The position numbers and the translations under genes are program-made. A stretch of DNA of 64,000 bases from Aphrocallistes beatrix (Eukaryota > Porifera > Hexactinellida > Sceptrulophora > Aphrocallistidae), in contig OY725490.1 of NCBI GenBank assembly GCA_963281255.1, forward strand, positions 1,426,001 through 1,490,000, written 5' to 3'. The notes under the pieces were generated by a model. It ran no database searches. It was not told where the DNA came from and worked only from the letters and a program-made list of their open reading frames with translations. Positions 938 to 52,839 of this stretch are shown in pieces (the stretch's first letter is position 1; the number at the start of each line of letters is the position of its first letter).

Positions 938-3900
938 TTACAGACTGGCATATTGATTAGTCTCAACGTGGTCTATATTACTATAGGGAGTAGGCGAGAT
1001 GTTTGGAGCCATCACTATTTTTCCAGCATGTGGGCCATGATCTATCTCCGAGTACTTGAGTTCGATCTGTGGAAAGAAATTGATAGAAATAATTAGATAA
1101 AGGATGGATAGTTATTTGCATTTACCATTTAAATAGTAATATTGAAATGAATTGTATTGGGAATTAGAAGTGTTGGACTGATACCAGTAGTACCAAAGCT
1201 GTGTGTCGATTCGCTCATAAGTATATATTGACTTTTAGTTAGTACATATTGCTATTACCTTGTCTTCCACCACAGGTCCAGGTATCCTGGTTACGTTACT
1301 GTAAGGATTTTCTATTCCCTGAGATCTACTCAAATAATTAGATTAAAATATAAATATCAGTTCAAAGCAATATACAGTAAATATTGGATAAGATATAATT
1401 TCCACACCAGTTATTGCTACAAGCGCGCTTCGCGCTTGCTTGCGCTGCGCGGCTGGCGAACACTTCGCGTCCGCCGGAGGCTCCCTTCGGTCACCTGGAG
1501 TCACATTGGTTAATTATAAGGGAAATACATCTCTAAATATGTCTATTCTACTGTGCTAATCGATATCACTCGAAAAATCACCAAATTTGTGAATTTAAAA
1601 ATTTTTGATGCGTAATGATGACGTCATAACAAAGTGATGAGTCATCATTTTTTATGATAGTCGTATCATATGTGAGACATGTTAGTATACAGATTCTATT
1701 AAAATTTCAGCCTTCTATCTCCTATAATGGCTGAGTTATGCCCGAATAACTGTGTTGCTTAACTTTTAAAAATGTGACAATGACGTCATAATTCCATGAT
1801 GAGTCGACATTTTGCTCTGAGCTCAGAACTTACTGGAGCCATAGCCAAAATACTCCCACATGCCAAAAATTAGCTTTCTATGACCGGCAGTTTCTTCAAT
1901 CAATTCGTTACAGATATATATACACAATAATCGAGTTTTAATAGTAAGGATAGTGAGATATTGGTTATAGTAGTAATTTGGCCAAAAATTATCTGACCCG
2001 GCATTATCACTACATACAGTATGTTCCATAATTATTGGTAGTGATTTCAAATTGCTACTATATTTCACAGGGGCTACCTTGATGATTCATATGCTAATAA
2101 ATAAGTAAAGTGGAGCAAAAGGAATAATTTTATCCAATATTTGTTGAAAATAATCAATACTTAATTTTCTACCCTTATAATTCTCTTGTCCATTGAGAGG
2201 CAAAAAGGTTGGATGAATTCGGGTTCGAACGATTGCCAAATCTCTAAAATCCCAGTCCTTAACTGCTCAACTGTTTTAGGCGCACGTATCATCAGTCTAC
2301 TCTTAAAGACTGCCCTGAGATTCTCAATTGGAGCAAGATCAGGGCTGTTAGGGGGCCAATCGATCCTGAGGGGGACAAATTCGGTCCTCCATGCCTTTGC
2401 TACCTTTGCTGTGTGGACAGGGCTATTATCCTCTTGCAGGTCCATTCACTACCTTTATTTATTTCTTTGATTGTTATTTTAATTATTTCTTTGATTGATT
2501 TTCTTAATTATTTTTTGATTGATTTTTCTTAAACAAAAATAATTATTCAAAAGATTTATTCGACAATAAATTCAACACTTACTCTTTCACAGCCTTTTCT
2601 GATTCTGTGTATCCTAAAAAGTGGTAGATCTAATCCAGTGGTTCCCAACCTCTTTTACCTCGTGCACCCCCTGACACCTAAAAATTATTTTGTGCACCCC
2701 AGGACCCACCTAAATCTGAAAAACTCTATTGATCCGACTTGTCATTGCAATAAGGACGACTAATAATAAGGACGAATCCTTGTCCCGTGCACCCCCGATT
2801 AAGGACCCGTGCACCCCTAGGGGGTTCATGCACCCCAGTTTGGGAACCGCTGATCTAATCAGTAGACTAACTACACAGTAAATCTAATTTTAAAATCAAA
2901 CTAACTATGGCTCTCTTTTCTTTTGCACCAGTAGACAATAATAATCAATACAAACAGAGCTATGAGTATGATCAGGATAACAAAGACTGCTCCCACAGCA
3001 GATCCAATGATCACTGAAGAGGAAATAGTAAAGGTTAAATTATGGTAAAAATTACTAAGCGTATTATAGAAAATCTCTTGCGATTCTTTTCATTCATTTC
3101 AGAAGTTTCTAATAATATACTCTTCTGTGATCTCTTTATTTATCTCGTATTTTATTACTATACTATCTCAAGGCTTGCTGTGTCTTAGATATCACAAAAC
3201 TACTAAGTTCTGAGTCTACAGCAGTGAATTCAAAGTTAGGATATTAATTAACTGGGGTCATTTCTATTTATAGTAAAGCCACACACTTCTAAGGTTTCCC
3301 GCCCAAAATGAAATGAATTAGCAAAAAACTAGCGTCATTTAAGAGTTATTAATTCTAATTATTTAAAGTTAAGAATATATTCACTTCAATCTCATCTTAT
3401 TCGGGAGATATGAATCGAATTAAAGCCAAAAGAAGAAAATCATAAAATGCTGCGTAATCATGATGATTTAGAATATTTTGGAAATCGAAGGTTGGTGCAA
3501 ATTTACATATAATGACCCATCAATACAAAAAACTGTTGTCATGAGCCATTACGGTCGGATGCTAGTACTCATTTAGAACTGTGCACCTACAAGATCATAC
3601 TTGTATATACGTATCCTATACAAAGAAAGGCAGGGCATACTACCAACCCCTCTTGAAAGTTCCCTGGATTTTAGGAGTGAAATCCCTGAATGTTATCATA
3701 TTTTTAAGCATGAATCGACTTATTTCGGAATTCGCGATCCAGGGAAATCCCTGGATTTAAAATAATCGCCGAATATATGTAATTAAATATTTCGAAATGG
3801 GGAAGTAAATATTTAGCAAAAGGTACATCGTATATAATGTAATCTTACTCGTTAAATAATCACTTTATCAAAATTCTAGAACAATTTTCGAAATTCGTTA

Positions 3901-6900
3901 TTTAGGAAAATTTCCTGGATCCCTGAAGACTTGCCAAATAATAAGGAACATAAAATTACTCAATAATTCTATGAACAATATTACATTAATGGAAATTATT
4001 ATAGACTAGTTAAAAGCTCAAAATCCCTGGATTCCTGGATCATATTTCATTTTCCCTGGATAATCTAGGGATCCCTGGAGGGTTGGTAAGTATGACAGGG
4101 GTGCTGCATTTGTCAGACAAAAATTATTTGCATTTGTCAGAATTTTTACAGGTATGCTTTTTGTCAGACTTATATTATTGTTATTGTTATTGTTATAAGT
4201 TTCGTGAGAGGGTGGTTAAGTGGCATTTTGTTTCTTTTAGAATGAATGGGAGAGCGAAAGTGAGCATTTTGGAGAGTAATATGATAAGAAAGGTGTGAAA
4301 AGGAGCCTTTTAATTTCGAAATATTGCCCAATTGAGTGTGGAAGTGTCATTTTTATTTCTTGACAGAGTGGTTGAGTGGCATTTGTTAGAACTCTAGAAA
4401 TTCCATTCTGACAAGTGCATAATTCGATAAAACAGATTTTGACAAAAACCAGTAAATGAAATTCTGACTAATAACATATTCAAGAGTCTGGCAAATGAAT
4501 ACACAGAAATTCTGACAAATGCATACGAAGCACACTAAAAGTAAATACGTACTTGCTTTACTCACTTGGTAAATTGCTGGTTGGATCTGTAACATCTATA
4601 AACAATGATTTGATTAATTTCTTAACTTTAAAGAATTAAGGTTAATAGTTTTTTAATCTGAATACCGTATGTTGAAAATATGTTGAAGCCGGTGTGAAAA
4701 TTACACTTATATCTTCTAACTGAATCGTAGATTCATTATTTGACACCTACATGCCAATTTTGATATCTCTACGCAGGGCCGGCGGAACTGGTCCGGCTTT
4801 GGCCGGACCAATTTTATGCCATTATGGCTTATTTTCATATGCAAATTTGCTTTTGGCAGAACCAACTTTCGCTATGGTCGGACCAATAAAAAGTTGCTTC
4901 CGCTGGGCCTGCTACGACTTACCAATTCTTCAATCAATTCGGACAAACATTAAAAATCCTAGCGTTATAATATACAAGATAATAAGTAAATTTGAACGCT
5001 CAACTGTCAACATCATTCACCATAAGGGGAAGTGGTAGGTTCCTGTGAAGAATTAGAAGGAGTAGGTTTTGAGGTGGGTGGAGTAGGAGGACTGTCTAAA
5101 AACACAGAAAATCGTAAAAGAGTGTGCATCAATTTATAAAATGCTACTTTAGGTTAATGTTGTACTTCATGGTAATGTCTATAGCATAATATTGTATCAT
5201 TATTTAACTGAATATTCCAACAATCCACATTTCCATTTCTTTTCATTGGAGAAATACTATGTTACTTTTCACTTTTAATTTCAATGGCATACTTAATTGT
5301 ACTACAGAGAATGCCGAGCATTTGTTTATGGCTTCAGTGGCATAGAAAATGGCTGGGAGACATCCGCGATATCGGAGACACTGTGTCCCCTCTGGGCATT
5401 CTACGGCATTCTGCGGGGAATTCCCACAGAAATCCTTTGGGAATGGGAATTGAAACTCCATTTCCACGGCAAACCTGCGTATCATCAAAACCTAATTTTG
5501 ATATACTATTTTAAAGAGTAAACCTAACACATAGAAATTAGGGATAAGACATGTGCTACAGATAATATAACTCCTACAAAAGTAAGGCAGATACAGAATT
5601 AGAATCAATAGAATAGTGACATACTTGAGTTGAAGAAACATTCCATTGCTTTTCCACTGAATGACTGTCCACACTGCTGTACTATCATCAAGTTAGCTGT
5701 AATGTTAGTTTCTACTCCATCTAGCTGAGTGAAGTTGTGAGCAGTTAGAACTGTATTGTAACTGAGTTGAGAAGATGGTAGAGTGAAGCTAGTACTGTCA
5801 GTGTATGTGTATGTTACACCTTGTCTACTGTGAGAGTAGAGGAGTTGGAGAGAATACGAGATGTCTAATCCTGATACTCCTGATGGCTGTGGATTAGGAG
5901 TAGTCAATCCCTAAATATTGAATATAACCCTGTTACAATGTTATGAAGGTTGAAATCTAGAAACAGTTGCACAAAGCATCTTCCACATTATACGTAAAAT
6001 ATCAGTATTTCATTTATGATAAAAAAGACCATCATAGATGGTGCAGTCATTATAATATTTTCAAAATTAAGATGTTACAAAAGATTCAGTAGTCAAGACA
6101 TGATAATTAAAACACTTCTTACTAACAAGTTTAATTAGTCGCCCTAAAAGTATAAATCTTTATACTTTGAAATACTAAATAGCCGAACACCAATAGTAAC
6201 TGCTCAACTAACCCAATTGATTGTGAGTTCTTCTGTGGCATTATGATAAGCAAGACACACAAACTGAGAACTCTTTGTTAGTGAATAACCTAATTGAATT
6301 GCAGACATATTAAATACCTCTAACTTTATTATAAGATTAAAATCTGTAAAAACTCACTTGTAACAGAGTTAACATTAGTAGAGCTGTTAGTAGAGTTACC
6401 AGCACAGCTCATAACTGTTACAGAGTACTGATAATCAGTGTTGATATTCAGAATAGTGGAGTGAATGTAACTGTTAGAACTAGTAGTATCTAGTGGAGAT
6501 CCATCAAGATACAGGAAATACCTATCTACAGTTCTGTTGCTAGGGGGAGTATTCCATGATAGAGATATGTCAGCTGAGCAAGTAGCTGTGTTGAAGTTAG
6601 ATACAGAACTCTGTAGACTGATAGGAGCAGAAGGAGCTAAGAAAATTATTCGATTATATTAAACAACAAGCACGCTTCGCTTGCTTGCGCCCCGCGGCTT
6701 CCGCAGAGTCGCCCTGCGGGCGCCTGGAGTCACTCAATCTAACATATTTTGGAATTATTTCCTTTATATAACTATTGTAAACAAAGGTCGACAAATAATT
6801 TCTCATATGGATCTGAAAATATGATATTCGAAATCTACACCCCTGAAAACCCCATGTCAACCGTTTAAAGCTAGTCTCTAGCATTATTTTCAAAATTCAT

Positions 6901-9224
6901 CAAATGGAGTGAAAATATGTATATAAAGGTGTGAAAATATATAGATAATTTTTTTATTGCCATACACTATAATACATTTAAGCGATCAAACATAAGTTGT
7001 GGCTTTGAAGTATTAATAACAATGACGATATATTGTAGTGTTGTACTTGTATAATGATTTCTATTGTGATAGTATAGGTCATTTATTTAGTATAGAAAAG
7101 GTGTGAAAAATTGTTTTCCATTTTTTTTGAAGAGGTGTGAAAATTTCGCTTAGATCTTAGAACTTAATGGTAGATTCATCATTTGACACCTACATGCCAA
7201 TTTTCGTATCTCTACGACTTGCCAATTCTTCAATCAATTCGAACAAACAAACAAACAAACAAACAAATCCTAGCATTTTAATATATAAGATTTCAGCAAG
7301 AAAATCGGAAGAAAATTGGGCTGGGGGCTCGAATCCCCCTGCATTGGAAGATGGCCCATAGACACAATACAAATTTAGGCCTGAGCTCCGAATCACGATA
7401 ATATGAAAAATGTTTAAAAAGTTCTCGTACAATTTTTGCCACATGTGACGATTTTGGTACCCTAGCTTTAGGTGGAGAATAAAAGGAAAGTTTAACAGAG
7501 ATCAACATTACTGACCAAACATTAGCTTCATGCAAAAAATGCATGTAGGTTCATCAACACCATCTAATACTGTGAAATCAAATCCAAACTCATTGGAATA
7601 TTCGTTATACTTTCTCTTCTTCGACATACTGATTATCATCTGCATCAGAATATTCGTTATACTTTCATGCAAAAGAAAAATTTCGTACGTTCACAATAAA
7701 TTAATTAGGGGAATTTTCAACCAAGGTTGTTGAGAAAAAAAACAGGACCCTAGGTGCTATTTTTAAAATCATCAATAATACACAATAAGAGAAAAATATT
7801 TGATATGTATGGTAATTTTTTTCCAGTGGTATTGTTTTAAGTGAGATATTTATTATTACTATTTAGGATGACTAGTCTACCCCATCCCATGTTAAGAACT
7901 TCTGAGATAATAATACCGGATATCTTTTTTATTATCTAAAACTTGGCGCCAATTAAGATATATTTGGAATGTTTAGCATCCCGTGAGGTCCAGATAGTGA
8001 AAGATTTATCTTTTAATTTATGCATACCATACATGCCAACCTGAGCCATGATAAAAACGGGACGCAGCGTTGAATTTCGCGGGACATAGCGGGACGCAAC
8101 AGAAAGTATTATACATGAGTGAAAAAAGCGGAACATAATGGGGAAATTTCATGTAAAAGCGGGACATTCGAGAAAATTAGCTCAATAGAAGAGTGAAAAA
8201 AGCGGGACAGTTGGCAAGTATAGCATACTCAAAAATGAAATATTAATTAACTAAACCTGGTCTATTGTTAGGATGGAATTATAAAAAATCAAATAATAAC
8301 ATACCAGCTTGTTCCAAAGGAAGAATTATTACTGACTGTAAATCACTGCCTCCACTGGGAGTATAATTAATATAGCATCCCATACTTAGATTTATATATT
8401 TATCGGAGTAGGAATTGAGAGTGATTGATCCAATTACATAAGTACTGCTTCCAGAAGGAGCTGTAGCACTGAAATCTCCTAAATATATTTTGTGAAAACT
8501 CCCCCTTCCATTTACTGAGGCAACATCAACTGGTTCATTAGGGAATTCTCCAAAGACAAAACAGGTTCTAGGATCTAACATTTCACCAACTCCAGCAGTA
8601 AATGTACAGCTTACAGTCACACGATCTCCAATACAAACAGCTGGTGGATCCAGCGTGGCCGTAGGTGTAACTGTAAAATAATGAAGTAAAGGATGGAAGG
8701 CTATAAGTTTAGTAAATAAGAATCTTCCAGAGCATTAATGGAGTGCAATCCTACATATTTTGTGGACATTCCTTTTAATAAAGTTTGTTTCCATAATTTC
8801 CCCTGATATCTAACAATTTTTCTTAACGTTTCCTACTGAAATTAAATATAGTTACTAGATTCATTATGCACTTGATCGAGACCGCTATTGTATAATCGTA
8901 TAGAACAGCGATTTCCAAACTGGGGTACATGAACCCCCTAGGGGTGCACGGGACAAGGATTCGTCCTCATTGCAATGACAAGTCGGATCAATAGAGTTTT
9001 TCAGATTTAGGTGGGTTCTGGGGTGCACAAAATAATTTTTAGGTGTCAGGGAATTCACGAGGTAAAAGAGGTTGGGAACCACTGGTATATAACTAGGTAA
9101 ATTATGTAGTCATATGTAGTATTTGGAGATATATTAATAATTCTAAGTTAACCAGTATCTACTTCATACCTCCATAGAGAAGTTGAGGGAAGAGGAGAAG
9201 TATCTGAAAGATGAACAAATACAT
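938..9224 (-). CDS. R1: Ig/FN3 transmembrane receptor with ITAM-like tail
   Basis: Eleven exons read by eye: 9224-9170, 8670-8305, 6636-6358, 6289-6213, 5910-5625, 5095-5021, 4595-4566, 3013-2906, 2613-2583, 1325-1259, 1066-938. All have GT-AG introns and phases agree, giving 500 aa. Seen: a signal peptide (residues 1-18, MYLFIFQILLLFPQLLYG), an Ig-like domain (19-141), two FN3 domains (141-234 and 234-355, the second split by an intron after the Trp of INW), a Pro/Thr/Ser stalk, a 30-nt microexon, a membrane helix (about 392-418, GSAVGAVFVILIILIALF) and a basic stop-transfer. The tail has NPYSNV (Y444), LKYSEI (Y463, fits the ITIM consensus) and YSNI-DHVETNQ-YASL (Y486 and Y497, ITAM spacing) ending at the stop. 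Known: such motifs recruit SH2 proteins when phosphorylated by Src/Syk-type kinases. Inferred: cell-surface recognition receptor. The introns are full of MITEs. Exon edges could be off by a few bases and alternative splicing is not excluded. Confidence 0.85.
1419..1951 (+). mobile_element. HE family element, near complete
   Basis: Starts acaagcgcgcttcgc, followed by three GC-rich self-complementary modules to about 1500 (the second around gaacacttcgcgtcc). AT-rich DNA follows, then a conserved phrase (ttcttcaatcaattcg) with a short TA-rich run, and the element ends ttttaatagtaaggat. The element at 58949-59425 has both ends. It sits in an intron of R1. It has no coding capacity and resembles non-autonomous Helitron-like elements, but that class is inference. 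Confidence 0.6.
2161..2445 (-). pseudogene. Tc1/mariner transposase C-terminal fragment
   Basis: The 94-residue frame carries QEDNSPVHTAK and, further on, WPPNSPDLAPIENL. These are the second Asp and the Glu regions of the Tc1-type DDE catalytic domain. The N-terminal DNA-binding part and the first catalytic Asp are absent, so it is a truncated relic within an R1 intron. The frame on the opposite strand is a shadow. Confidence 0.85.
2636..2852 (+). mobile_element. hAT-type MITE (cagtggttcccaacc)
   Basis: Terminal inverted repeats cagtggttcccaacc and the complement of gtttgggaaccgctg are flanked by a perfect 8-bp target duplication, atctaatc (2628-2635 and 2853-2860). The 8-bp duplication and CAGNG ends are diagnostic for hAT. 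A second copy lies inverted at 8906-9084. Confidence 0.9.
3645..4095. mobile_element. MITE with 'ccctgga' inverted ends
   Basis: Bounded by accaacccctcttgaaagttccctgg and the inverted counterpart ccctggagggttggta. The interior has several copies of tccctggat and its complement. It is non-coding and lies in an R1 intron. Confidence 0.55.
4096..4545. repeat. 'tgtcaga'-rich inverted-repeat region
   Basis: Multiple copies of gcatttgtcaga on the left are mirrored by tctgacaaatgc-like copies on the right (4420-4530), as in a foldback MITE. The short open frames at 4083-4298 and 4386-4595 lie in it and look meaningless, apart from the true 30-nt R1 microexon at 4566-4595. Confidence 0.4.
4715..4985 (+). 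mobile_element. HE-family tail with a nested MITE
   Basis: The sequence tgacacctacatgccaattt ... caattcttcaatcaattcg matches the HE tails at 7175-7289 and 50471-50620. It is interrupted at about 4774-4913 by a small element with ends cagggccggcgg / ccgctgggcctg and an apparent ctacg duplication. A relative of the nested element is at 54284-54355. Confidence 0.55.
6666..7289 (+). mobile_element. HE family element, full length
   Basis: Starts acaagcacgcttcgcttgc with the GC-rich hairpin modules (ccgcagagtcgccctgcggg). AT-rich DNA follows, then the conserved tail ttcttcaatcaattcg, a run of five aaac units, and the end cctagcattttaatatataag. A diverged copy of the first third is at 52468-52640. 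It sits in an R1 intron. Confidence 0.6.
8034..8221. mobile_element. MITE with 'gggac' internal motifs, copy 1
   Basis: Inverted ends are catgccaacctg and the complement cttgccaactg. The interior is rich in gcgggac. Other copies are at 24210-24402 and 55001-55192, and a partial copy is nested in another element at 9552-9640. It is intronic in R1, close to the Ig exon. Confidence 0.7.
8906..9084 (-). mobile_element. hAT-type MITE, inverted second copy
   Basis: Reverse complement of the 2636-2852 element. The ends cagcgatttccaaac and gttgggaaccactg are flanked by gtatagaa / gtatataa, a 7-of-8 target duplication. It lies in the first intron of R1. The 65-residue open frame here is a by-product. 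Confidence 0.85.
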
Positions 9225-9449: not shown

Positions 9450-10140
9450 ACAAGCACGCTTCGCTTGCTTGCGCTGCGCGGCTTGCGGACACTTCGTGTC
9501 CGCAGATTTACCCAGTGGGAACTTACGGATATTAGAGAAACAATACGTCGCATACTTGCCAACTGTCCCGTTTTTGGCGGGACGTCCCACTTTTTTCACT
9601 CTTCTATTGAGCTAATTTTCTCGAGTGTCCCGCTGTTTTATACTAAGTACGCTGAATTGTCATTTGTCTACGGTAATGAAATCAGAACTGTAGCAGAAAT
9701 TGTTTCGTGATAAATATAATTTACTTCGTATTAAGTCAACTAATCCTGAATGTAAGCTCAATTTGAATACACAAAGTTCACATTGCTAAAGATTATTATA
9801 CTTAAATAATCAATTCCAGTCCATGTCGTTAAAAGTTATTTTATGATCGAATTGATTGATCGTAGCATATAACACACTTTAATTGTTGTTAACAATCAAA
9901 TTATAGACTCAAAATAGCAGTATTCAATCATTTATATGAAATAGAATCGTGTGAATGGCATTATAAAAGGCTGATAATTGATTGGTTCACATAAACCAAT
10001 GAATTTCAATCACAAATAGTTCTTTTGATTGTATGCATAAGTCAATACTATTTTATTCCAATGTATTTGCATTATAAAATAATAGAATTTGATTGGTCAG
10101 CACATTTTGTCACCTATCTCGGCGAGTTGTAAACACCGAG
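9450..10140 (+). mobile_element. HE family element with nested MITE fragment
   Basis: Begins with the HE hairpin head (acaagcacgcttcgcttgc). From there to about 10135 it matches, in reverse, 50625-51565. At about 9552-9640 a partial gggac-type MITE is inserted that is missing from the 51 kb copy, so this insertion is younger than the element. It lies upstream of R1. Confidence 0.6.
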
Positions 10141-11760: not shown

Positions 11761-12144
11761 AATCATAACATTGTTATGTATCAGACTTAATTAGTGTTCT
11801 TTACTGGTAATGGGTTGGAATTGGGATCAAATTTCCCGAACCCGAGTATGATTATGGAACTGAACCCGCCTCAAGTCATCCGATCCGAATCAGCAAATTT
11901 AAATTCTAGACATGACTAAAGTGCTTAAATTCACTAAAATAAACTCTGTTTTGGTGTTTGTTGTTATGAAACTATATTATAAGTTAGCGTCTTCTAAACT
12001 TAGTGCTTATACTTAGTAAAACTACTTTACAAACTTCAAACAAAACTAAATACAGGTAAGTTAGGACCTGTTTTGTGTTTATCAGTAGAACTAGGTTAGT
12101 GTAAGTGCCGAATGTTACGGGAGGATTCTGAGTGCTTGTAAACA

Positions 12145-12676
12145 GTTGTTAGATACGAAGGGTGTTGCCAATTCCTTTCTCGGAACACGCTCTTATATGA
12201 CGCCTGAAAAACTAAAAGGTTTATTGAGTAAATATTTGTTTTATTGTTTGTGTTTTAATTGTAAACATGAGAAAAACATGAAAATGACCATTTCTTGACC
12301 AAATAGAGTCTTTAACCAAAAACCGCGATTCATTGATCAGTTTTTCAAGACACCAATCCACATTTTTAACAATTACAACTCATCAGTTTAATCATGAGTG
12401 ACACATTTTAACACCTCTTCAGATTATTTCCAAGAGTGACTTGTGGAGCTTAGGAATTTTGTTGATAGAAATGGCGATAGGTAAAATCCCATTCCTCCAC
12501 TCCCTAGCAACGAAATTGACTCATTGATATGTCTACCTCCAGCTGGCTCTGAAAATCAGGCGCCAGTTCTCCCCAGCAATTTTGACCACCCAATGACGGC
12601 GCCATTCGAAATGCTCCAATAAGTTGCTATGGAGGTACCTCCAACTATGCCTAGAAACCATTTCACACCAGAGTTA
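12145..12676 (+). pseudogene. MEK (MAP2K) kinase fragment, copy A
   Basis: Two exon-like pieces. The piece at 12145-12218 reads LLDTKGVANSFLGTRSYM..., the activation loop and P+1 loop of MAP2K1/2. The piece at 12423-12676 reads KSDLWSLGILLIEMAIGK, kinase subdomain IX, and then goes out of frame. Compared with copy B it has lost about eight bases at the start of the second exon and one base after IGK (aaatatccc became aaatccc). No N-lobe, catalytic loop or C-terminal exons were found, so it is a dead fragment. Confidence 0.85.
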
Positions 12677-38712: not shown

Positions 38713-41700
38713 TATGTATAATAACTGATGGAAATGGCTGGAATTTTCAGGAATTAGTATAATAACTGATGGAAATGGCTGGAATTTTCAGGAATTAGTA
38801 TAATAACTGATGGAAATGGCTGGAATTTTCAGGAATTAGTATAATAACTGATGGAAATGGCTGGAATTTTCAGGAATTAGTATAATAACTGATGGGAAAT
38901 GGCTGGAATTTTCAGGAATTAGTATAATAACTGATGGAAATGGCTGGAATTTTCAGGAATTAGTATAATAACTGATGGAAATGGCTGGAATTTTCAGGAA
39001 TTAGTATAATAACTGATGGAAAATGGCTGGAATTTTCAGGAATTAGTATAATAACTGATGGAAATGGCTGGAATTTTCAGGAATTAGTATAATAACTGAT
39101 GGAAAATGGCTGGAATTTTCAGGAATTAGTATAATAACTGATGGAAATGGCTGGAATTTTCAGGAATTAGTATAATAACTGATGGAAATGGCTGGAATTT
39201 TCAGGAATTAGTATAATAACTGATGGAAATGGCTGGAATTTTCAGGAATTAGTATAATAACTGATGGAAATGGCTGGAATTTTCAGGAATTAGTATAATA
39301 ACTGATGGAAATGGCTGGAATTTTCAGGAATTAGTATAATAACTGATGGAAATGGCTGGAATTTTCAGGAATTAGTATAATAACTGATGGAAATGGCTGG
39401 AATTTTCAGGAATTAGTATAATAACTGATGGAAAATGGCTGGAATTTTCAGGAATTAGTATAATAACTGATGGAAAATGGCTGGAATTTTCAGGAATTAG
39501 TATAATAACTGATGGAAATGGCTGGAATTTTCAGGAATTAGTATAATAACTGATGGAAATGGCTGGAATTTTCAGGAATTAGTATAATAACTGATGGAAA
39601 TGGCTGGAATTTTCAGGAATTAGTATAATAACTGATGGAAATGGCTGGAATTTTCAGGAATTAGTATAATAACTGATAGAAATGGCTGGAATTTTCAGGA
39701 ATTAGTATAATAACTGATAGAAATGGCTGGAATTTTCAGGAATTAGTATAATAACTGATGGAAATGGCTGGAATTTTCAGGAATTAGTATAATAACTGAT
39801 GGAAATGGCTGGAATTTTCAGGAATTATGTATAATAACTGATGGAAATGGCTGGAATTTTCAGGAATTAGTATAATAACTGATAGAAATGGCTGGAATTT
39901 TCAGGAATTAGTATAATAACTGATGGAAAATGGCTGGAATTTTCAGGAATTAGTATAATAACTGATGGGAAATGGCTGGAATTTTCAGGAATTAGTATAA
40001 TAACTGATGGAAATGGCTGGAATTTTCAGGAATTAGTATAATAACTGATGGAAATGGCTGGAATTTTCAGGAATTAGTATAATAACTGATGGAAATGGCT
40101 GGAATTTTCAGGAATTAGTATAATAACTGATGGAAATGGCTGGAATTTTCAGGAATTAGTATAATAACTGATGGAAATGGCTGGAATTTTCAGGAATTAG
40201 TATAATAACTGATGGAAATGGCTGGAATTTTCAGGAATTAGTATAATAACTGATGGAAATGGCTGGAATTTTCAGGAATTAGTATAATAACTGATGGAAA
40301 TGGCTGGAATTTTCAGGAATTAGTATAATAACTGATGGGAAATGGCTGGAATTTTCAGGAATTAGTATAATAACTGATGGAAATGGCTGGAATTTTCAGG
40401 AATTAGTATAATAACTGATGGAAATGGCTGGAATTTTCAGGAATTAGTATAATAACTGATGGAAATGGCTGGAATTTTCAGGAATTAGTATAATAACTGA
40501 TGGAAATGGCTGGAATTTTCAGGAATTAGTATAATAACTGATGGAAATGGCTGGAATTTTCAGGAATTAGTATAATAACTGATGGAAATGGCTGGAATTT
40601 TCAGGAATTAGTATAATAACTGATGGAAATGGCTGGAATTTTCAGGAATTAGTATAATAACTGATGGAAATGGCTGGAATTTTCAGGAATTAGTATAATA
40701 ACTGATGGAAAATGGCTGGAATTTTCAGGAATTAGTATAATAACTGATGGAAATGGCTGGAATTTTCAGGAATTAGTATAATAACTGATGGAAATGGCTG
40801 GAATTTTCAGGAATTAGTATAATAACTGATGGAAATGGCTGGAATTTTCAGGAATTAGTATAATAACTGATGGAAATGGCTGGAATTTTCAGGAATTAGT
40901 ATAATAACTGATGGAAATGGCTGGAATTTTCAGGAATTAGTATAATAACTGATAGAAATGGCTGGAATTTTCAGGAATTAGTATAATAACTGATAGAAAT
41001 GGCTGGAATTTTCAGGAATTAGTATAATAACTGATGGAAATGGCTGGAATTTTCAGGAATTAGTATAATAACTGATGGAAATGGCTGGAATTTTCAGGAA
41101 TTAGTATAATAACTGATGGAAATGGCTGGAATTTTCAGGAATTAGTATAATAACTGATGGGAAATGGCTGGAATTTTCAGGAATTAGTATAATAACTGAT
41201 AGAAATGGCTGGAATTTTCAGGAATTAGTATAATAACTGATGGGAAATGGCTGGAATTTTCAGGAATTAGTATAATAACTGATGGAAATGGCTGGAATTT
41301 TCAGGAATTAGTATAATAACTGATGGAAATGGCTGGAATTTTCAGGAATTAGTATAATAACTGATGGAAATGGCTGGAATTTTCAGGAATTAGTATAATA
41401 ACTGATGGAAATGGCTGGAATTTTCAGGAATTAGTATAATAACTGATGGAAATGGCTGGAATTTTCAGGAATTAGTATAATAACTGATGGAAATGGCTGG
41501 AATTTTCAGGAATTAGTATAATAACTGATGGAAATGGCTGGAATTTTCAGGAATTAGTATAATAACTGATGGAAATGGCTGGAATTTTCAGGAATTAGTA
41601 TAATAACTGATGGAAAATGGCTGGAATTTTCAGGAATTAGTATAATAACTGATGGAAAATGGCTGGAATTTTCAGGAATTAGTATAATAACTGATGGAAA

Positions 41701-42870
41701 TGGCTGGAATTTTCAGGAATTAGTATAATAACTGATGGAAATGGCTGGAATTTTCAGGAATTAGTATAATAACTGATGGAAATGGCTGGAATTTTCAGGA
41801 ATTAGTATAATAACTGATGGAAATGGCTGGAATTTTCAGGAATTAGTATAATAACTGATAGAAATGGCTGGAATTTTCAGGAATTAGTATAATAACTGAT
41901 AGAAATGGCTGGAATTTTCAGGAATTAGTATAATAACTGATGGAAATGGCTGGAATTTTCAGGAATTAGTATAATAACTGATGGAAATGGCTGGAATTTT
42001 CAGGAATTATGTATAATAACTGATGGAAATGGCTGGAATTTTCAGGAATTAGTATAATAACTGATAGAAATGGCTGGAATTTTCAGGAATTAGTATAATA
42101 ACTGATGGAAAATGGCTGGAATTTTCAGGAATTAGTATAATAACTGATGGGAAATGGCTGGAATTTTCAGGAATTAGTATAATAACTGATGGAAATGGCT
42201 GGAATTTTCAGGAATTAGTATAATAACTGATGGAAATGGCTGGAATTTTCAGGAATTAGTATAATAACTGATGGAAATGGCTGGAATTTTCAGGAATTAG
42301 TATAATAACTGATAGAAATGGCTGGAATTTTCAGGAATTAGTATAATAACTGATAGAAATGGCTGGAATTTTCAGGAATTAGTATAATAACTGATGGAAA
42401 TGGCTGGAATTTTCAGGAATTAGTATAATAACTGATGGAAATGGCTGGAATTTTCAGGAATTAGTATAATAACTGATGGAAATGGCTGGAATTTTCAGGA
42501 ATTAGTATAATAACTGATAGAAATGGCTGGAATTTTCAGGAATTAGTATAATAACTGATGGAAATGGCTGGAATTTTCAGGAATTAGTATAATAACTGAT
42601 GGAAATGGCTGGAATTTTCAGGAATTAGTATAATAACTGATGGAAATGGCTGGAATTTTCAGGAATTAGTATAATAACTGATAGAAATGGCTGGAATTTT
42701 CAGGAATTAGTATAATAACTGATGGAAATGGCTGGAATTTTCAGGAATTAGTATAATAACTGATGGAAATGGCTGGAATTTTCAGGAATTAGTATAATAA
42801 CTGATGGAAAATGGCTGGAATTTTCAGGAATTAGTATAATAACTGATGGAAATGGCTGGAATTTTCAGAA
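38713..42870. repeat. 41-bp satellite array, about 100 copies
   Basis: Unit tataataactgatggaaatgg then ctggaattttcaggaattag (41 bp, with 42-bp variants having one extra A or G after gatgg). Copies are almost identical. Rare variants (gatagaaat; ttatgtata junction; gatgggaaat) recur in the same order about 2182 bp apart (for example ggaattatgt at 39821 and 42003), showing a large block duplication within the array. No open frame, no spacer diversity. Array length may be misassembled. Confidence 0.95.
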
Positions 42871-42999
42871 ATTTAATGCCATCAAGTACATGGCAATATT
42901 TATGCAGAAATTCCTAATTCTTGCCACATGATAATGCTCTTGTACTCCTATGCATTTGTACCGTGTGATTAAATCAATTATTATAATTATCATTCATTC

Positions 43000-43370
43000 T
43001 GATATACGTAAATGCTAAATAATTATTTAAATTCTCTCTTGGGTCATGTTGATTCGTGGAAACCTATTTTATATAATCATATATATCATGGCTCTACAAA
43101 CTTCAGTTTACGCCATCACTACAATCTGTTTCTTGGCAAAGATGGAAATTATGGCAGGGGTTGTGAAACCACCGCATTTCTACATAAGTCGAAATAGACA
43201 TCCTTATCATGATCAACAGCTGGTCACAAGTTTCATCAGATGAGTTTTAGCAGTGCAACTTTCAATGTGCAGCAAACAACACTAAGTTGTATGAATTAAG
43301 ATTTAGTGACTTGAAGTAAGAACATCTATACAAGTATTATGCTCTGCAATTCACTTTCTATTTAAAAGTA
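43000..43370. repeat. Second copy of the R3 intron block
   Basis: Homologous to 33560-33940. The small frames at 43012-43243 are not conserved between the two copies and are not genes. Confidence 0.85.
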
Positions 43371-43644
43371 TTCCTAAAACTTTTAGAGGTTTGAGATAAG
43401 GAGCGCATTTCTGGAGTATAATACCCTGTATTGTGCGGGTCTTTTTCGGGCTTGTTGCGGGACAATGGCCTACACGGCCCGTGTGCAACTGTGAGTAGTA
43501 CACACTAGTAAATAAGGACAATCCTGCAGGTGTAAATAAGGTTGTATCAATAATTCTATCAGCATCACCAGAACTACCGTTAAGATAGTATACAGCAGAA
43601 CACCCAAGACGTATACCAGCATCAGAAGGTGTGCAAGAAGAGAG

Positions 43645-44395
43645 TTAATATCACTGATGATAGATAAGTAGCTTTATCAACATAATTTATTCGGTTGCAA
43701 AACGGTTATTGTGTCATATCTTCAGAATTCAATTCTCATAACTCAGTGGCTGGGTATAGCAGTTATACATTGATTATGGATTTCGCTAACTCATTTCCGG
43801 TAAAGTCATTTTGGGCGGGGAAATCTTATAAATACGGGGTCCGTCCTATAAATAGAATGGACCCTAGGTCATTGTCGGGATTTATATAATGGAGTAGTCG
43901 TGTGTAATCAGTGTTCCTATTAGTTATACTCTACCTGCTGGCATTCTCTTTGGAAGTCACTCTTGTAAACTAGAATTAGTAGTCCTTAAAAATAATTATG
44001 GAATTCACATACGCACAATTATTGAAATTACTTGGAAGCTAATTATAAGTTCCTTGTACTATTGTAACTGCTTGATCACATACATATGCCTTCTAAAGAT
44101 CTACGGGCCTCATTCAATAAAATTCTTGCACGAAGTAAGAAATTTTTAGAATTGAACTAAGAATTAGTTAAGAATAATTCGAAATTCAGTAAATAATGCG
44201 TTTACAGAAGAGAATAATAGGAAGCACAAACTGTGGTACAAGTGAAACAAAACATACCTTGAAGTGGAAAGAGAAATAAACATACTTTAGATTATATTAA
44301 AAAAATTTCTTAAAACATCATATACAAATATATCACAAACAAATTTAACACAAATACCGAAGAATTGAAAATACAACTGCACAAATGATTGGAAC
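43645..44395. other. Filler in the broken Ig copy, no gene
   Basis: AT-rich. From 44107 there is cctcattcaataaaattctt, related to the left end of the element at 62366. A frame of 64 residues at 43695-43889 shows nothing recognisable. Confidence 0.45.
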
Positions 44396-44800
44396 ATGAT
44401 ATTAACAAACATAAATATAATTTTAGAACATTTTAAAGACGTGGGACTTCATGACCGAGTGGTTAGCGCACTGAGTCGATAACAAAGTGACGCAGGTTCG
44501 AATCCCTAGCAAGTCAACAAATTTTCTACTTCCAGTATAACAAACATATTTATAATTTCAGAACATTTTAAAGACGTGGGACTTCATGACCGAGTGGTTA
44601 GCGCACTGAATTGATAATAAAGTGACGCAGGTTCGAATCCCAAGCAAGTCAACAAATTTTCAGTATTCCATAGGAACAAACATAAATATAATTTTAGAAC
44701 ATTTTAAAGACGTAGGACTTCATGGCCGAGTGGCTAGCGCACTGAGTCGATAACAAAGTGGCGCGGGTTCGAATCCAAAGCAAGTCAACAAATTTTAAGT
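44395..44800 (+). repeat. Three tandem tRNA-like units (about 135 bp each)
   Basis: Each unit holds a tRNA-like core (about 44444-44516, 44579-44651, 44715-44787). It has an A-box-like gaccgagtggttagcgc, a CACT...AGTG stem and a consensus B box ggttcgaatcc; gactt near the start pairs with aagtc at the end. The anticodon loop is too long and the stems are imperfect, so these are tRNA pseudogenes or a tRNA-headed SINE, not functional tRNAs. Spacers (aacattttaaagacg) are also repeated. Confidence 0.7.
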
Positions 44801-45112
44801 GTTCCAAAGTAACAAACTGACTTGATAACGAAGGAGCGGAGCGTGGGAACAACCCAAATAAAAAAGAACACATAAAATTTTAAAGAAAAGGAATCCATAT
44901 AGAGCGATGGCTCTAGGATTAGGGGAAACATAGAGTCAGAAAGATAACTAAAAGGGGAATTTCAAACATAATGAAACAAGGAAGGAACTGTCGATAAAGG
45001 TTAACGAGAAAACAACTTATGACATAATGCAAACGAGTATCCCATTATGGGGAAGGAATCGAAAATCACTAGAACAAAATGGATTTTATGCACAAAATAC
45101 TTCATAGAAACC

Positions 45113-46345
45113 ACGCTTGGTGGGGCATTGAAAAGAGTTATCCAAAATGCCAATTCTCTGCATAATGCCAAAAAGCACCCTCTCCGGTGGGGGGTTTGAA
45201 AAGAGTGACCCAAAACGCCCATTCTCCATATAATGCCATTGAGCACCCGCTCCGGGAAGGAGGTTTGAAAAGAGTAACCTAAAATGCCCATTCTCCACAT
45301 AATGCCACTGAGCACCCCCTCCGGGTAGGGGGTTTGAAAAGAGTAACCCAAAATACCCATTCTCCATATAATGCCACTGAGCACCCCGTCCGGGTGGGGG
45401 CTTTGAAAAGAGTAACCCAAAATGCCCATTCTCCACATAATGTCACAAAGCACCCCCACCGGGTGGGGGCTTTGAAAAGAGTAACCCAAAATGCCCATTC
45501 TCCAAATAATGCCACAAAGCACCCCCTCCGGGTAGGGGGTTTGAAAAGAGTAACCCAAAATGCCCATTCTCCAAATAATGCCACAAAGCACCCCCTCCGG
45601 GTAGGGGGTTTGAAAAGAGTAACCCAAAATGCCCATTCTCCATATAATGCCACTGAGCACCCCCTCCGGGTAGGGGGTTTGAAAAGAGTAACCCAAAATG
45701 CCCATTCTCCATATAATGCAACTGAGCACCCCCCTCGGGTAGGGGGTTTGAAAAGAGTAACCCAAAATGCCCAATCTACACATAATGCCACAAAGCACTC
45801 ACTCCGGGTGGGGGCTTTGAAAAGAGTAACCCAAAATGCCCATTCTCCAAATAATGCCACAAAGCACCCCCTCCGGGTAGGGGGTTTGAAAAGAGTAACC
45901 CAAAATGCCCATTCTCCATATAATGCCACTGAGCACCCCCTCCGGGTAGGGGGTTTGAAAAGAGTAACCCAAAATGCCCATTCTCCATATAATGCCACTG
46001 AGCACCCCCCTCGGGTAGGGGGTTTGAAAAGAGTAACCCAAAATGCCCATTCTCCACATAATGTCACAAAGCACCCCCTCCGGGTGGGGGCTTTGAAAAG
46101 AGTAACCCAAAATGCCCATTCTCCACATAATGTCACAAAGCACCCCCTCCGGGTGGGGGGTTTGAAAAGAGTAACCCAAAATGCCCATTCTCCATATAAT
46201 GCCACTGAGCACCCCCTCCGGGTAGGGGGTTTGAAAAGAGTAACCCAAAATACCCATTCTCCACATAATGCCACAAAGCACCCCTAGGTGCGGGGAGGAA
46301 TTGAAAAAGTCAACCAAAATGCCTGTTCTTCACATATTGCCACAG
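45113..46345. repeat. 69-bp minisatellite, about 18 units
   Basis: Unit: gaaaagagtaacccaaaatg, cccattctccatataatgcc, ac(t/a)(g/a)agcaccccc, tccgggtagggggttt. The core ccccctccgggtaggggg is a hairpin. Because 69 is divisible by three and the unit happens to lack stops, frames stay open on both strands for up to 331 codons. These frames have no start context, no family resemblance and no partner exons, so they are not annotated as genes. Confidence 0.9.
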
Positions 46346-46599
46346 ATAAGTGATAAGCATTAAAACATCTACTCAGATCTACTCCTTCTTTCCTGTACCA
46401 GAATTAACAGCAGTATCCGTAAGGGAAACATTAATATTACCGAGGATGAAATTAATGAAGTTCGAACGGAAATTGCTGATTGCATTTGGAATAGTCAATT
46501 CGCACTCAACAGTGACGTTATCTCCTGCACAGCTATAAGGTGGTACCTGAGTCAAAGTACCTGTAACATTGCAATAGCATATGAGATAAGGTACCGCGA

Positions 46600-48119: not shown

Positions 48120-51100
48120 CTAAATCAGGTATAAGTAGATGGCAGGATGTCTAAACAAGTTGTTCTTCGAATAACAGAACCAGAATCCGAATCCGAGGAG
48201 AACAAAAACAATCAGAATGAAGATCACCGCTAAAGCTATAATGGATGCATAAAATATAAAAGAATATTAGATAACAGCATTCTTATCTGATTATAAATAG
48301 CATCCAAGGCAATAAGAACATTTATATTTACTTGCGCTACGCGGCTTGCGGACACTGCGTGTCCGCAGAGTCGCTCTGCAGGCGCCTGGGGATATCAAAG
48401 AAACAATAAAAAACTTTCTGTCGAGTTAAGCATGCAATTTCCATGAAAACCAAATACCAAGTTCTTTAAAAATTACTTTCAATATTTATAATCTTACCAG
48501 TGTTCAAGGAAGATGTTGTAGGAACAAGAGAGGTCGTGGTAGAAACAGGAGTTGATAACGTGGGATTTGATGCTATGCAAAGTATACTTTATTAAAACTA
48601 ATTATCTACTAACAGTCTTTACTTTCTTCCATACTCACCAGTGTTGAAGGAAGAAGAAGAACTGATGGAGCAAGATATTTGAGTGCCAGAGTAGGACTGT
48701 CCACACTGCTGAGTTATTCTCAGAACAGCTGTGATGTCAGTCTCTACCTCTGCACTACCAACGAAGTTGTGAGGAGTCAGAGACTGAGTGGAAGTGCGTG
48801 CATCAGAAGAGAGGAGAGAGAATGGAATGTTGTCACTGAATATTCTGGTAACATTTCCCTGAGTGTGTGAGTAGTTCAGTGAGAGAGAGTACTCAATCAG
48901 GAGTGTGGTAGTCGGAGTAGGAGCAGAGAAGTCCTGGAAATAAAGATAGGGTGTTTTGTTGTGTGTTAGAGAGTAAGTTTCTTAAATATTTAAAGCAGAA
49001 TTCTTTCGTCATAGATACAATTTGATTTATTAAGGAATTCATTTGCTAATGTGAAATAGCTTAAAATAGGATTTGTTTGTATTCAATTACAGATAACCTT
49101 GTTGGACTAATTTAATCGTATCTGACAATCAATTATGTAAATGGAATCCTAAAATAGCTCCAATAATGAGAAATAGAAATTATGTATTCATGTTCTCTTT
49201 ATATAAATAATTCATAGGTAAGATAATATATAAGTATAAACCCATACACTGGAACTATTTAAAGTATATATATAAGATTTGTTGAGTCATTATAAATTGA
49301 TTATCAAACCATACTCACCCAATTTATCCTGAACAAATTAGACTCATCCTCATAACTGATACAAGTTGAATTTGAGCTTATTTTCGATAAAGAATAACCT
49401 AAATGAGAAATCTGCATGAAACACAATAATATCTCGGGAACGCAGAATTTGACCTAAAATGGAAATAGGAATTTGACCTAAAAATAGAGGGAGAGAGAAG
49501 GTGAGCATTTGTTAGGTTTGAAATAGTGTTCAATTGAGTGTGAGTGGCATCTTTTTCGTAAGGGGAGTACTGTGTGGCATTTAGGTATTAATCCTACTTA
49601 GTACGTTTTAGGTCTTATTCCTGCTTCAAAATTATTTTAGGTCAATTTCCTACTTCGCAATATTTAGGTCAAATTCCAGCGTCCAAATATCTCGATTCCA
49701 AATGCTAATACAACTGCAACTCACTATTAATAGTGTCGAGATTTGAGGTGGCTACAATAGAGTTCCCAGCACAGCTGCTAGCATGGACAGAGTATGCATA
49801 GACTGTATCGAGGAGTAGATCAGTGTTGTGAGAGTATGAGTTAGCAGGTGCTGATATGCTCTCCAGTTCTGTTCTGTTCTGAGACAAGTAATAGAGATTC
49901 ACAGTTCTGTCTGTGGAAGAGGGAGGAATCCAGTTCAGTGAGACTGTAGCAGAGCAAGTGCTAGGATCTATGTTGGATGATGAGATGGACAGCATAGATG
50001 GAGCAGGAGGAGGAGCTGTGGAGATTTAAACTCAAACTATTCAATCCCATTCATATAAAGAATATATTACCTCATCAAGGTTTAAATCGATATGTCAATG
50101 TTGCAAAAAAATCCAAAACACGATACAGTAGATATTGGATATCACTATACTCAATATATCACTATGTTGTTTGAGTTTTGTGATTTCTGTCTTAGATACT
50201 ATTCTTGATGATGTACAACAAAGTCTTTATTCCAAATATAACGTGTTTTAACTATTTGGAAATTCTACAATAGGTTTTAACAAGTACATATATAGCGGAT
50301 ATGGTGATAGTGCTGGGGACATGGAATTTTGGGTCAAAGTATCACTATGTATCCAATATATCACTATATCCAATATCAGTCATGGTCGCTTATTGTGAAC
50401 CACCAGGGGACCAAAAAATATGTTCATAATAGGGACACTTCATATTAAACGAACTTGATTCAATACAAATCTTATATATTAAAACTCTAGGATTTTTGTT
50501 TTTGTTTTTTGTTTGTTTGTCCGAATTGATTGAAGAATTGGCAAGTCGTAGAGATACGAAAATTGGCATGTAGGTGTCAAATGATGAATCTAGGATTAAG
50601 TTCGAAGATCTAAGCGAAATGTTCACACCTCGCCGAGATAGGTGACAAAATGTGTTGACCAATCAAATTCGATTATTTTATAATGCAAATACATTGGAAT
50701 AAAATAGTAGTGACTTATGCATACAATCAAAAGAACTATTTGGGATTGAAACTCATTGGTTTATGTGAACCAATCAATTATCAGCCTTTTATAATGCCAT
50801 TCACACGATTCTATTTCATATAAATGATTGAATACTGCTATTTTGAGTCTATAATTTGATTATTAACAACAATTAAAGTGTGTTATATGCTACGATCAAT
50901 CAATTCGATCATTAAATAACTTTTAACAGGGCTGGGGTTGGTTAACCGATATTTGGTGTCGGTTATTTTAGTTTCCTCCAGGGCGGTTAACCGGTTAACC
51001 GATGTCAATATTAATTAGTATAAATATGGATTTGTCGACTAATATTTAACCTGATATTGAAAAATTTACAATCTTCAGTGGTCTCGAAATATACTATATT

Positions 51101-52839
51101 GTTAGAAAAATTGTAATAATATTGTAATAACAAGTTTTACAAGTAATATTCATGAATCTTCATCGAAAACAATGAAATTATTCTAAATATTTATAAATTA
51201 AAGCAGATCGGTTAACCGATCCAGGATTTTCTTAACCGTTAACCGTGATTGACGGCGGTTAACCGGTTAACCGAATCCAGCCTTGCTTTTAACGACAAGG
51301 ACTGGCATTGATCAAATTGAGCTTACATTCAGGATAGTTGACTTAAGACTTAATACGAAGTAAATTATATTTATCACGAAACAAAATTTCTGCTACAATT
51401 CAGATTTCATTAATGTAACCATAGACAAATGGCAATCCAGCGTAATTAGTATAAAACAAGAATGCGACGTATTGTTTCTCTAATATCCGCAAGTGCCCAC
51501 TGGATAAATCTGCAGACACGCAGTGTCTGCAAGCCGCGCAGCGCAAGCAAGCGAAGCGCGCTTGTCCTTTCTAAAGAATGAAATTGGGACCAGGAGGTTA
51601 GTTCATAATAAACGAATGTTCATATTAAGCGACCCTGACTGTATCTAATATACCACTATATATATCCAATATCTACTGTATCGAAATTTCAAAAAATCTT
51701 AATATGAATAACCTCCCATTTGGGGATGACCTTAAAGGTTTAGATTTTAGTCTTAGCTAAGACTGGTGGCTGTGATATATCAGTCAGTGATAGTTCTAGC
51801 GAATTACGGACAAACCTGCAGGTCTTAGTAGAGTTGTTTCACTAGCTACATCAGTAGCACCAGAATTACCACTAAGATAGTATAAAGCAGAACACCCAAG
51901 ACGTATACCAGCATCAGAAGTTGTGTAAGATGAGAGAGTTAGGCTTCCAAGTGTGATCTTATCATTACTGAAACTGTTATTAGCAAAAGCAGTCAGTCTA
52001 CTCAGATCTACTCCTCCAATAATCGTGTTTTCTGAGTTAATATCTACGTCATCCACAGAAGTAGAGTGATTACCAACAATAAACCGAGACAAAGAGTCCC
52101 TAAAATTGTTAGCTGAATCCGGAACGGTTATTTCACATTCAACAGTGACGTCATCTCCTCTGCATGCGAGTGCAGGTACCTGCGTCACTACACCTGTCAA
52201 TAAGTACGGATAAGTATAATTAGGTTTAAGAGAATCGCATTTATTCGGAAGTTTGACAAATCGTAACACACAAATCCGTTCGTTTAAGTGTTACTTTTTC
52301 CCTAGCAACGCAAGAATGTGTCAGGAATGTAACAATATTCCATTCTCAAATTTTGCCTTAACCCTATCGAGTGACCTCTCGTCCGATTCCACTCAGCTAG
52401 CTGGGAATAGTTATGCATATATTGACTTCATAATCTGTCTTTTAACACTTCTTCGAGATTTATTATTAACAAGCGCGCCTCGCAGAGTCGCCCTACGGGA
52501 GCCTAGAGTTTCTCAATCTAACATATTTGGGGATATTTTTCACTTTATATATAAATATTGTTAACAAAAGTTAACGAATAATTTCGCATATGGATCCGAA
52601 AATATAATATTCTAAATCTACACGCTGGAAGCCAGCCTCTAGCTTATTTTTGTAATTTGTTTACTTAAAAAACCATTGCGTTTTGATATATAAGATGTTT
52701 CTTTGAAATATCGTATAAAGCATAATTAAATAACGCTGAAAATTGGGAACTTACATGTAGCTGAGAAATCATAGCCCAAAGAAATCAATGAACTCACAAC
52801 AAATATAAATTTTAAAATGCTAGAGCAATAGATAATCAT
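48120..52839 (-). CDS. R4: Ig/FN3 receptor with minimal tail (439 aa)
   Basis: Seven exons: 52839-52755, 52193-51816, 50015-49725, 49398-49319, 48933-48639, 48572-48498, 48235-48120. All GT-AG, all phases agree. Seen: signal peptide (1-28, MIIYCSSILKFIFVVSS), Ig-like (29-155; DDVTVEC and DAGIRLGCSALYYL, closest to R3), FN3-1 (155-252), FN3-2 (252-377, with the same internal intron after INW as R1 and R3), a Ser/Thr stalk (TTTSLVPTTSS), a membrane helix (about 404-424) and a 15-residue tail ending AIYLYLI. The tail-encoding exons of R1 and R3 are absent. Inferred: adaptor-dependent or decoy partner of its signalling paralogues. A further 3' exon by alternative splicing is possible. Confidence 0.85.
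49430..49685. mobile_element. MITE with 'aggtcaaattcc' ends, inverted copy
   Basis: Homologous in reverse to 29703-29905. R4 intron. Confidence 0.6.
50382..51645 (+). mobile_element. MITE 'cagtcagggtcg' split by an HE element
   Basis: Left piece 50382-50470 and right piece 51566-51645 together correspond to the intact copy at 55828-55995. The join falls at caatacaaat / cctttctaaag. Lies between the Ig and FN3-1 exons of R4. Confidence 0.75.
50471..51565 (-). mobile_element. HE family element, full length with a nested MITE
   Basis: Read on minus it runs from acaagcgcgcttcgcttgc, through the GC hairpins, to ttttaatatataag. Both ends are defined by the split MITE around it. A third element (about 50937-51290, ends ggctggggttggttaaccg / cggttaaccgaatccagcc) is nested within it and missing from the 9450 copy. 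Confidence 0.75.
52468..52640 (+). mobile_element. HE family fragment
   Basis: aacaagcgcgcctcgcagag and following AT-rich DNA match 6666-6840. In the first R4 intron. The open frame at 52253-52564 crosses it and is not a gene. Confidence 0.55.

Follow-up and report, generated by a model that had tools for sequence, protein, structure and literature searches.

The window analysed here, a 64,000-nucleotide stretch of contig OY725490.1 from the hexactinellid sponge Aphrocallistes beatrix, holds four multi-exon genes on the minus strand between positions 938 and 52839, named R1 to R4, which encode predicted transmembrane receptors. Exon borders were placed by reading the sequence and then checked by script: AG or GT stands at 66 of the 66 internal borders, the phases are consistent and none of the four models contains an internal stop. 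R1 (938-9224) has 11 exons in a frame open to the stop and encodes 500 amino acids (exons 9224-9170, 8670-8305, 6636-6358, 6289-6213, 5910-5625, 5095-5021, 4595-4566, 3013-2906, 2613-2583, 1325-1259 and 1066-938). R2 (23337-28117) has 8 exons and encodes 704 amino acids including three fibronectin type III (FN3) domains (28117-28048, 27675-27337, 27275-27012, 26396-26106, 25589-25260, 24766-24494, 24089-24024 and 23818-23337). R3 (29978-37778) has 11 exons, 595 amino acids and an ambiguous 3' end (37778-37718, 36376-35999, 35538-35254, 34878-34802, 34503-34212, 34035-33949, 32427-32398, 31918-31799, 31516-31477, 30753-30615 and 30256-29978). R4 (48120-52839) has 7 exons and encodes an almost tailless protein of 439 amino acids (52839-52755, 52193-51816, 50015-49725, 49398-49319, 48933-48639, 48572-48498 and 48235-48120). 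All four proteins are laid out as leader, ectodomain, transmembrane segment and tail, and a hydropathy scan finds a single strong hydrophobic segment N-terminal to each tail; to the eye each leader resembles a signal peptide, and in R2 and R4 alone it exceeds the hydropathy threshold. A sequence-only reading of the same DNA had announced four minus-strand transmembrane receptor genes, and this is borne out by the borders, phases and hydrophobic segments. Its further statement that all are intact stands for the open frames and joined phases of the four models and is doubtful for R3, whose exon 11 is fused and carries an altered donor. Intron 9 of R1 contains a DDE_3 transposase fragment (2161-2445, minus; E 1.2e-5, below the Pfam cut-off). 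An inverted pair of 308 nt, 97% complementary, lies upstream of R1 (9828-10135) and in intron 2 of R4 (50620-50927); these are likely copies of a mobile element.

R1, R3 and R4 follow a common plan, in which exon 2 encodes an N-terminal domain (121-125 codons), exon 3 an FN3 domain and exons 4 and 5 together a second domain, followed by stalk, transmembrane segment and tail. In all three genes a tryptophan codon and a phase 0 border close exon 4, and the flanking domain exons are cut in phase 1. The plan of R2 differs, with two N-terminal domains followed by three FN3 domains; hence the ectodomain plan said to be shared by all four genes is shared by R1, R3 and R4 through exons 2-5 and does not extend to R2. 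At the DNA level blastn matches R2 to R3 over 139 nt around exon 1 (70%, E 1e-9) and over a second 24 nt elsewhere, and to R1 over one 195-nt segment outside the exons, likely a repeat; between R2 and R4 it returns no match. Profile comparisons of the exon 3 and exon 4+5 domains of R1, R3 and R4 with the FN3 domains of R2 and with each other give probabilities of 8% or less, and we therefore do not claim shared descent for the R2 ectodomain.

The FN3 domains are clearest in R2, where Pfam fn3 (PF00041) is found above its cut-off in three stretches (E 1.1e-17). With most of the tail excluded from the query, their relatives in the PDB are LAR-type phosphatases, Dscam, Roundabout and contactins. 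Scans of whole R1 and R3 give fn3 at E 0.0019 and 0.0067, both under the Pfam cut-off, and a scan of whole R4 does not find it; taken by itself, the exon 3 peptide reaches 4e-4 in R3 and 0.005 in R4, again below the cut-off. A three-sequence profile of exon 3 matches in the PDB a DUF3472 protein (2e-4), Chitinase A1 (5e-4, entry 1k85) and a LAR-type phosphatase (0.08), the matched part of 1k85 being, we assume, the FN3 domain of that enzyme. Neither the whole proteins nor the exon 5 peptides of R3 and R4 give a Pfam match for the domain of exons 4 and 5, whose best E in a PDB profile search is 1.3. For the N-terminal domains, the sole Pfam match of R3 is PA2794-like_C (E 0.011, under the cut-off), and a profile of the three sequences reaches only E 0.25 and above in the PDB. 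A lone PDB match of the single R3 sequence to a feruloyl esterase (E 0.0028) was taken as chance and gives no support to an Ig fold. The first N-terminal domain of R2 has no Pfam match; the second matches Ig_3 below the cut-off (E 0.016, and E 1 in a scan of whole R2), and a single-sequence model of it was dropped at a predicted local distance difference test score (pLDDT) of 44.5. When an AlphaFold2 model of the N-terminal domain, built from the R1, R3 and R4 sequences, was submitted to Foldseek, the best 50 of 1217 matches were, judged by their titles, all of the Ig fold and mostly antibody variable domains. On this model the N-terminal domain of R1, R3 and R4 is probably Ig-like and V-set-like. 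No relatives of the R1/R3/R4 alignment were confirmed among 40 pattern matches in viral contigs and 91 in prokaryote contigs.

The tails carry different tyrosine motifs. The immunoreceptor tyrosine-based activation motif (ITAM) has the consensus YxxL/I-x6-8-YxxL/I, which occurs in one of the four tails, that of R1. Four of its five tyrosines stand in YxxI/L/V, and the last pair forms YSNI-x7-YASL (941-985, minus), found by a motif scan with shuffles, its coordinates checked by translation; the spacing arises in 0.6% of 20,000 shuffles of the R1 tail, a value uncorrected for the 24 motif-by-tail tests. The tail of R2 lies within one exon, ends in SEYANLK and contains a coding tandem repeat (23388-23648, minus; by Tandem Repeats Finder period 42 bp, 6.2 copies, 97%) carrying six YVPM motifs, which are PI3-kinase-type YxxM sites. 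That of R3 is long, with four tyrosines, one YxxM and two motifs resembling the immunoreceptor tyrosine-based inhibition motif (ITIM), one of which, YVVL, is present only if read-through in exon 11 is correct; the motif scan finds no ITAM in it. In R4, 17 residues follow the transmembrane segment by the cut used. Of the four different outputs described from the sequence, three are recovered: an ITAM-spaced pair in R1, six YVPM with SEYANL in R2 and 17 residues in R4. For R3 there are a YxxM and one ITIM-like match, the other being conditional on the read-through.

The 3' end of R3 bears on that condition. Its exon 11 is a fusion of an exon-11-like and an exon-10-like piece. At the donor position exon 10 reads GT, and the exon-10-like piece inside exon 11 reads CT and is run through; because the donor is so replaced, the last residues of R3 are uncertain. 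An additional exon-11-like frame lies 3' of R3 (29501-29623, minus), preceded by CTACAG and ending in VDYIVTNQHASLQT and a stop; R1 exon 11 matches it by tblastn at 29596-29510 (E 2.3e-5). By eye, the counterpart of the second ITAM tyrosine of R1 is S in R3 exon 11 and H in this frame. A further copy, absent from the sequence-only reading, is R5, the relic of a fifth N-terminal-domain exon (43525-46558, minus), recognized by blastn, tblastn and reading of its frames. R5 is closest to R3 (pieces 89% and 94% alike by blastn), is frameshifted and is interrupted by about 2.7 kb that include a 69-bp minisatellite (45128-46344). No further R5 exons were found by tblastn with exon peptides of at least 20 residues at E up to 0.05. 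R5 points to the birth and death of copies at this locus. Also within these limits, 44399-44817 consists of three copies of a 136-bp unit, which presumably contains tRNA-like box sequences; ARAGORN reports no tRNA there.

Judged by synonymous divergence (Ks) exon by exon, R1, R3 and R4 are mosaics, a property that the sequence-only reading had not described. Between R1 and R3, Ks is 0.177 in exon 3 and 0.144 in exon 5, as against 1.41 in exon 2 and saturation in exon 4 (12.3 of 16.2 synonymous sites differ over 26 codons) and in exon 1 (15 codons). The FN3 exon of R1 (6358-6636, minus) pairs with R3 exon 3 (35538-35254) at a nonsynonymous divergence (Ka) of 0.093 within a 94% blastn block at 6648-6381, and R1 exon 5 (5625-5910, minus) pairs with R3 exon 5 (34503-34212) at Ka 0.031 within a 95% block at 5921-5625. 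Both blocks begin 11-12 nt ahead of their exons; the first ends 23 nt short of the exon end and the second exactly there. Towards the rear, Ks between R1 and R3 is 0.23 in exon 6, 0.16 in exon 7 (10 codons), 0.36 in exon 8, 1.52 in exon 10 and 0.33 in exon 11, exon 9 having too few codons. R3 and R4 share instead the N-terminal-domain exon, R3 exon 2 (35999-36376, minus) and R4 exon 2 (52193-51816), with Ks 0.454 against 1.09-3.7 in exons 3-5 (about 1.1 in exons 3 and 5, 3.7 in exon 4); exon 6 gives 1.45 and exon 1 is saturated. Between R1 and R4, Ks is about 1 or more across exons 1-6. Applied to rounded counts, Fisher tests give 1e-15 for exons 3 and 5 of R1-R3 against exons 2 and 4, 1e-6 against exon 4 alone, and 1.4e-4 for exon 2 of R3-R4 against exons 3-5. 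In introns 1-5 and 7, similarity between R1 and R3 does not exceed the best of 60 shuffles each, and in introns 6, 8, 9 and 10 it does.

Given these differences, exons 3 and 5 of R1-R3 and exon 2 of R3-R4 have separate and younger common ancestors than the exons adjacent to them, and with the intron pattern this relates the stalk and rear of R3 to R1, and its N-terminal domain to R4. The simplest cause, in regions where the exons alone still match, would be exon-scale conversion or recombination. Three other origins were considered and rejected. Selection on synonymous sites does not account for the low-Ks exons, as Ks over exons 3-5 is about 1 or higher whenever R4 is compared. One continuous conversion templated by cDNA across exons 3-5 is at odds with the saturation of exon 4, though that exon has only 26 codons. 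A single recent duplication of the whole gene is at odds with introns 1-5, which cannot be aligned, and with the Ks of 1.4 in exon 2.

What kind of receptors might these be? In KIR, LILR and SIRP, vertebrate families without FN3, ectodomains related to one another are joined to tails that may be activating, inhibitory or short, and the short activating forms of KIR and LILR pair with adaptors through a charged transmembrane residue. We put the chances at about even that R1, R3 and R4 are type I membrane receptors of paired-receptor-like kind, in a family that multiplies by duplication. In such a family the N-terminal domain would bind the ligand and the tails would give different signals when phosphorylated: R1 through its ITAM to a Syk-type kinase and R3 through single YxxI/M sites, with R4 giving no signal and acting perhaps as an adhesion partner or decoy. 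Ectopic gene conversion or exon-scale recombination would be the shuffling agent, and by mixing binding domains with outputs it could generate new specificities, as in paired receptors. For R2, the YVPM repeats would recruit PI3-kinase through the YxxM consensus. The analogy with families of related ectodomains and different outputs, drawn at the outset for all four genes, is strengthened by the mosaicism of R1, R3 and R4 and is weakened by the architecture of R2 and the uncharged transmembrane segment of R4. We propose a likeness to paired receptors in the way of working, and do not claim membership in CEACAM, Alr or FcoR.

A close parallel is with the CEACAM paired receptors of Xenopus and mammals; for Xenopus, gene conversion limited to single (N) exons, between introns that are poorly conserved, has been described (PMC5112662). 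Clustered receptors, related ectodomains (exons 2-5 of R1, R3 and R4), differing tyrosine tails and exon-restricted similarity are common to both, whereas FN3 domains set the R1-R4 cluster apart. The Alr proteins of Hydractinia are described as IgSF members that share little identity and whose genes form a cluster including likely pseudogenes (PMC11067881), and a review passage attributes ITAM and ITIM motifs to candidate allorecognition genes of this animal (PMC12065747). Clustering, tyrosine motifs and a broken copy recall our locus, a likeness of descriptions rather than of compared sequences; polymorphism and allorecognition are demonstrated in Hydractinia, and the window gives a single haplotype. 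The FcoR genes of Botryllus, in the same review passage, encode clustered type I receptors of 520-610 amino acids with a variable-type Ig domain and tails carrying ITIM, hemITAM or core YxxI/L/V motifs (PMC12065747). Clustered type I receptors with YxxI/L/V-type tails are found here too, but the V-Ig, sushi and two C2 Ig domains given there contrast with FN3 and an unassigned domain; Pfam at E up to 10 finds no sushi family in R1-R4, so that they depart from the FcoR plan. The oyster CgIgIT2 is, like R1, an invertebrate receptor with an ITAM; it has five Ig domains, and the passage that describes it does not mention a cluster mosaic (PMC11999971). The functions given there for the IgSF proteins of sponges are adhesion and recognition between cells (PMC11999971), and two sponge transcriptome papers record genes that carry Ig and FN3 domains, the term ITAM being absent from their main text (PMC8242945, PMC6208332). 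Among the matches listed in a search of the open-licence literature, no title or beginning of an abstract describes a sponge cluster of ITAM-bearing Ig/FN3 receptors.

Several observations weigh against the paired-receptor-like reading. The genes had been called Ig/FN3 receptors, with HMMER and AlphaFold suggested as the check on each domain: fn3 is clear in R2, and the N-terminal domains of R1, R3 and R4 match no Pfam Ig family. The three-sequence model of that domain is of low confidence (pLDDT 56.5; predicted template modelling score 0.51), and its best Foldseek E is 3.3e-3, with none below 1e-3 among the matches listed. R2, as its sequence has it, is a neighbouring gene with another architecture, and fits an ordinary adhesion receptor. 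The transmembrane segment of R4 (residues 398-422) contains no K, R, D, E or H, unlike the short activating forms of KIR and LILR. The tail end of R3 looks damaged or re-arranged. With respect to the mosaic, the R1-R3 distance in exon 3 depends on the alignment of its 3' end (29 differences over 93 codons or 19 over 91). The CEACAM authors state that intrachromosomal conversion requires opposite gene orientation (PMC5112662); opposite-facing pairs are found there, and R1-R4 are all on the minus strand, so that unequal or sister exchange would have to be invoked. It is moreover the N exon that is homogenised in CEACAM, whereas here it is exons 3 and 5 between R1 and R3, exon 2 being the youngest between R3 and R4. 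Finally, Ka/Ks between R1 and R3 is near or above 1 in exons 6, 8 and 11, and the differences between exon 2 of R3 and R4 spread almost evenly over the codon positions (33, 31 and 36), which may reflect lost constraint rather than diversification. Ka/Ks is lower in exon 5 (0.22) and exon 3 (about 0.5) of R1-R3, and is 0.65 in exon 2 of R3-R4. Taken together, these values show rear, tail and N-terminal domain diverging under little constraint, a pattern that fits diversification and decay equally.

It is possible, though we doubt it, that these are ordinary adhesion or growth-control receptors, multiplied by plain tandem duplication without a role in recognition, Ig and FN3 domains with tyrosine tails being widespread outside immunity. 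The PDB neighbours of the R2 FN3 domains, the PI3K-type YVPM sites, and the nearly tailless R4 with its uncharged membrane segment agree with such a role; mosaicism, divergence of the tails and a broken fifth exon would be more typical of fast-evolving recognition families. Unlikely, in our estimate, is a decaying cluster in which one or two genes, R1 and R2, function, R3, R4 and R5 degenerate, and the differences between tails are the product of decay. Four observations speak for it: the broken R5; the last exon of R3, which reads across a changed donor and has no counterpart of the second ITAM tyrosine; R1-R3 Ka/Ks values of roughly 1 or higher in exons 6, 8 and 11; and the even codon-position differences in exon 2 of R3-R4. 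Against it, the 11 exons of R3 and the 7 of R4 retain AG/GT sites and a frame open throughout, and exon 5 holds Ka/Ks at 0.22 between R1 and R3. More unlikely still is a histocompatibility locus of the kind known from the Hydractinia ARC or from the FcoR genes of Botryllus fuhc. Type I receptors in a cluster, tails that mix ITAM and YxxI, and a relic copy would suit it, clusters, tyrosine motifs or pseudogenes being described for those systems (PMC12065747, PMC11067881). The FcoR architecture, without FN3 as described in PMC12065747, and the lack of detectable relatives in the viral and prokaryote contig collections are opposed to it.

The remainder of the window contains other features. Two similar intronless NHL-repeat frames of 417 codons each stand in tandem duplication on the minus strand at 12837-14090 and 17580-18833; pieces of 300 nt are 97% alike, and the first copy matches Pfam NHL at E 7e-30. 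No relatives of the NHL protein were found in viral (31 pattern matches) and prokaryote (101) contigs, and five plasmid records contain sequences of 25-27% identity. Between the two copies, a MEK1/2-like kinase fragment (about 16052-16542, plus) falls in the frame 16216-16542 and matches MEK2 in the PDB at E 2e-15; three repeat pairs, 92-94% alike, link 12066-12669 (plus) to 15883-16496. Spliced receptor genes with FN3, together with the NHL and MEK-like sequences, suit an animal genome, and the intronless NHL genes may resemble those of sponges. A satellite at 38716-42873 comprises 101 copies of a 41-bp unit, and its plus strand is far richer in G than in C (skew 0.38 over 40001-44000). A long frame at 60997-62184 (minus), with an N-terminal hydrophobic stretch, matches Pfam Kelch only at E 0.28 and has a partial relative of 26% identity on a 139-kb viral contig (L001). 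Over the whole window there is no Rfam match at gathering thresholds, and ARAGORN reports no tRNA.

The fullest form of the paired-receptor-like proposal is tentative and, to our mind, rather improbable: that an early-branching animal has a locus of this kind with an ITAM-spaced tail and an N-terminal domain that Pfam does not see. At such a locus the exons for recognition, stalk and output would be shuffled independently of each other, and homogenisation of the stalk, not of the binding domain, would drive the repertoire. If expressed and functional, the genes would nevertheless provide a compact, sequence-defined invertebrate case of related outer parts joined to different signalling tails, and of exon-scale exchange used as in the CEACAM genes of vertebrates. 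The YSNI-x7-YASL tail of R1 as a candidate ITAM, and polymorphism of the N-terminal exons, are precisely located questions. Such a case in a sponge would bear on whether ITAM-based recognition predates the cnidarian and ascidian cases.

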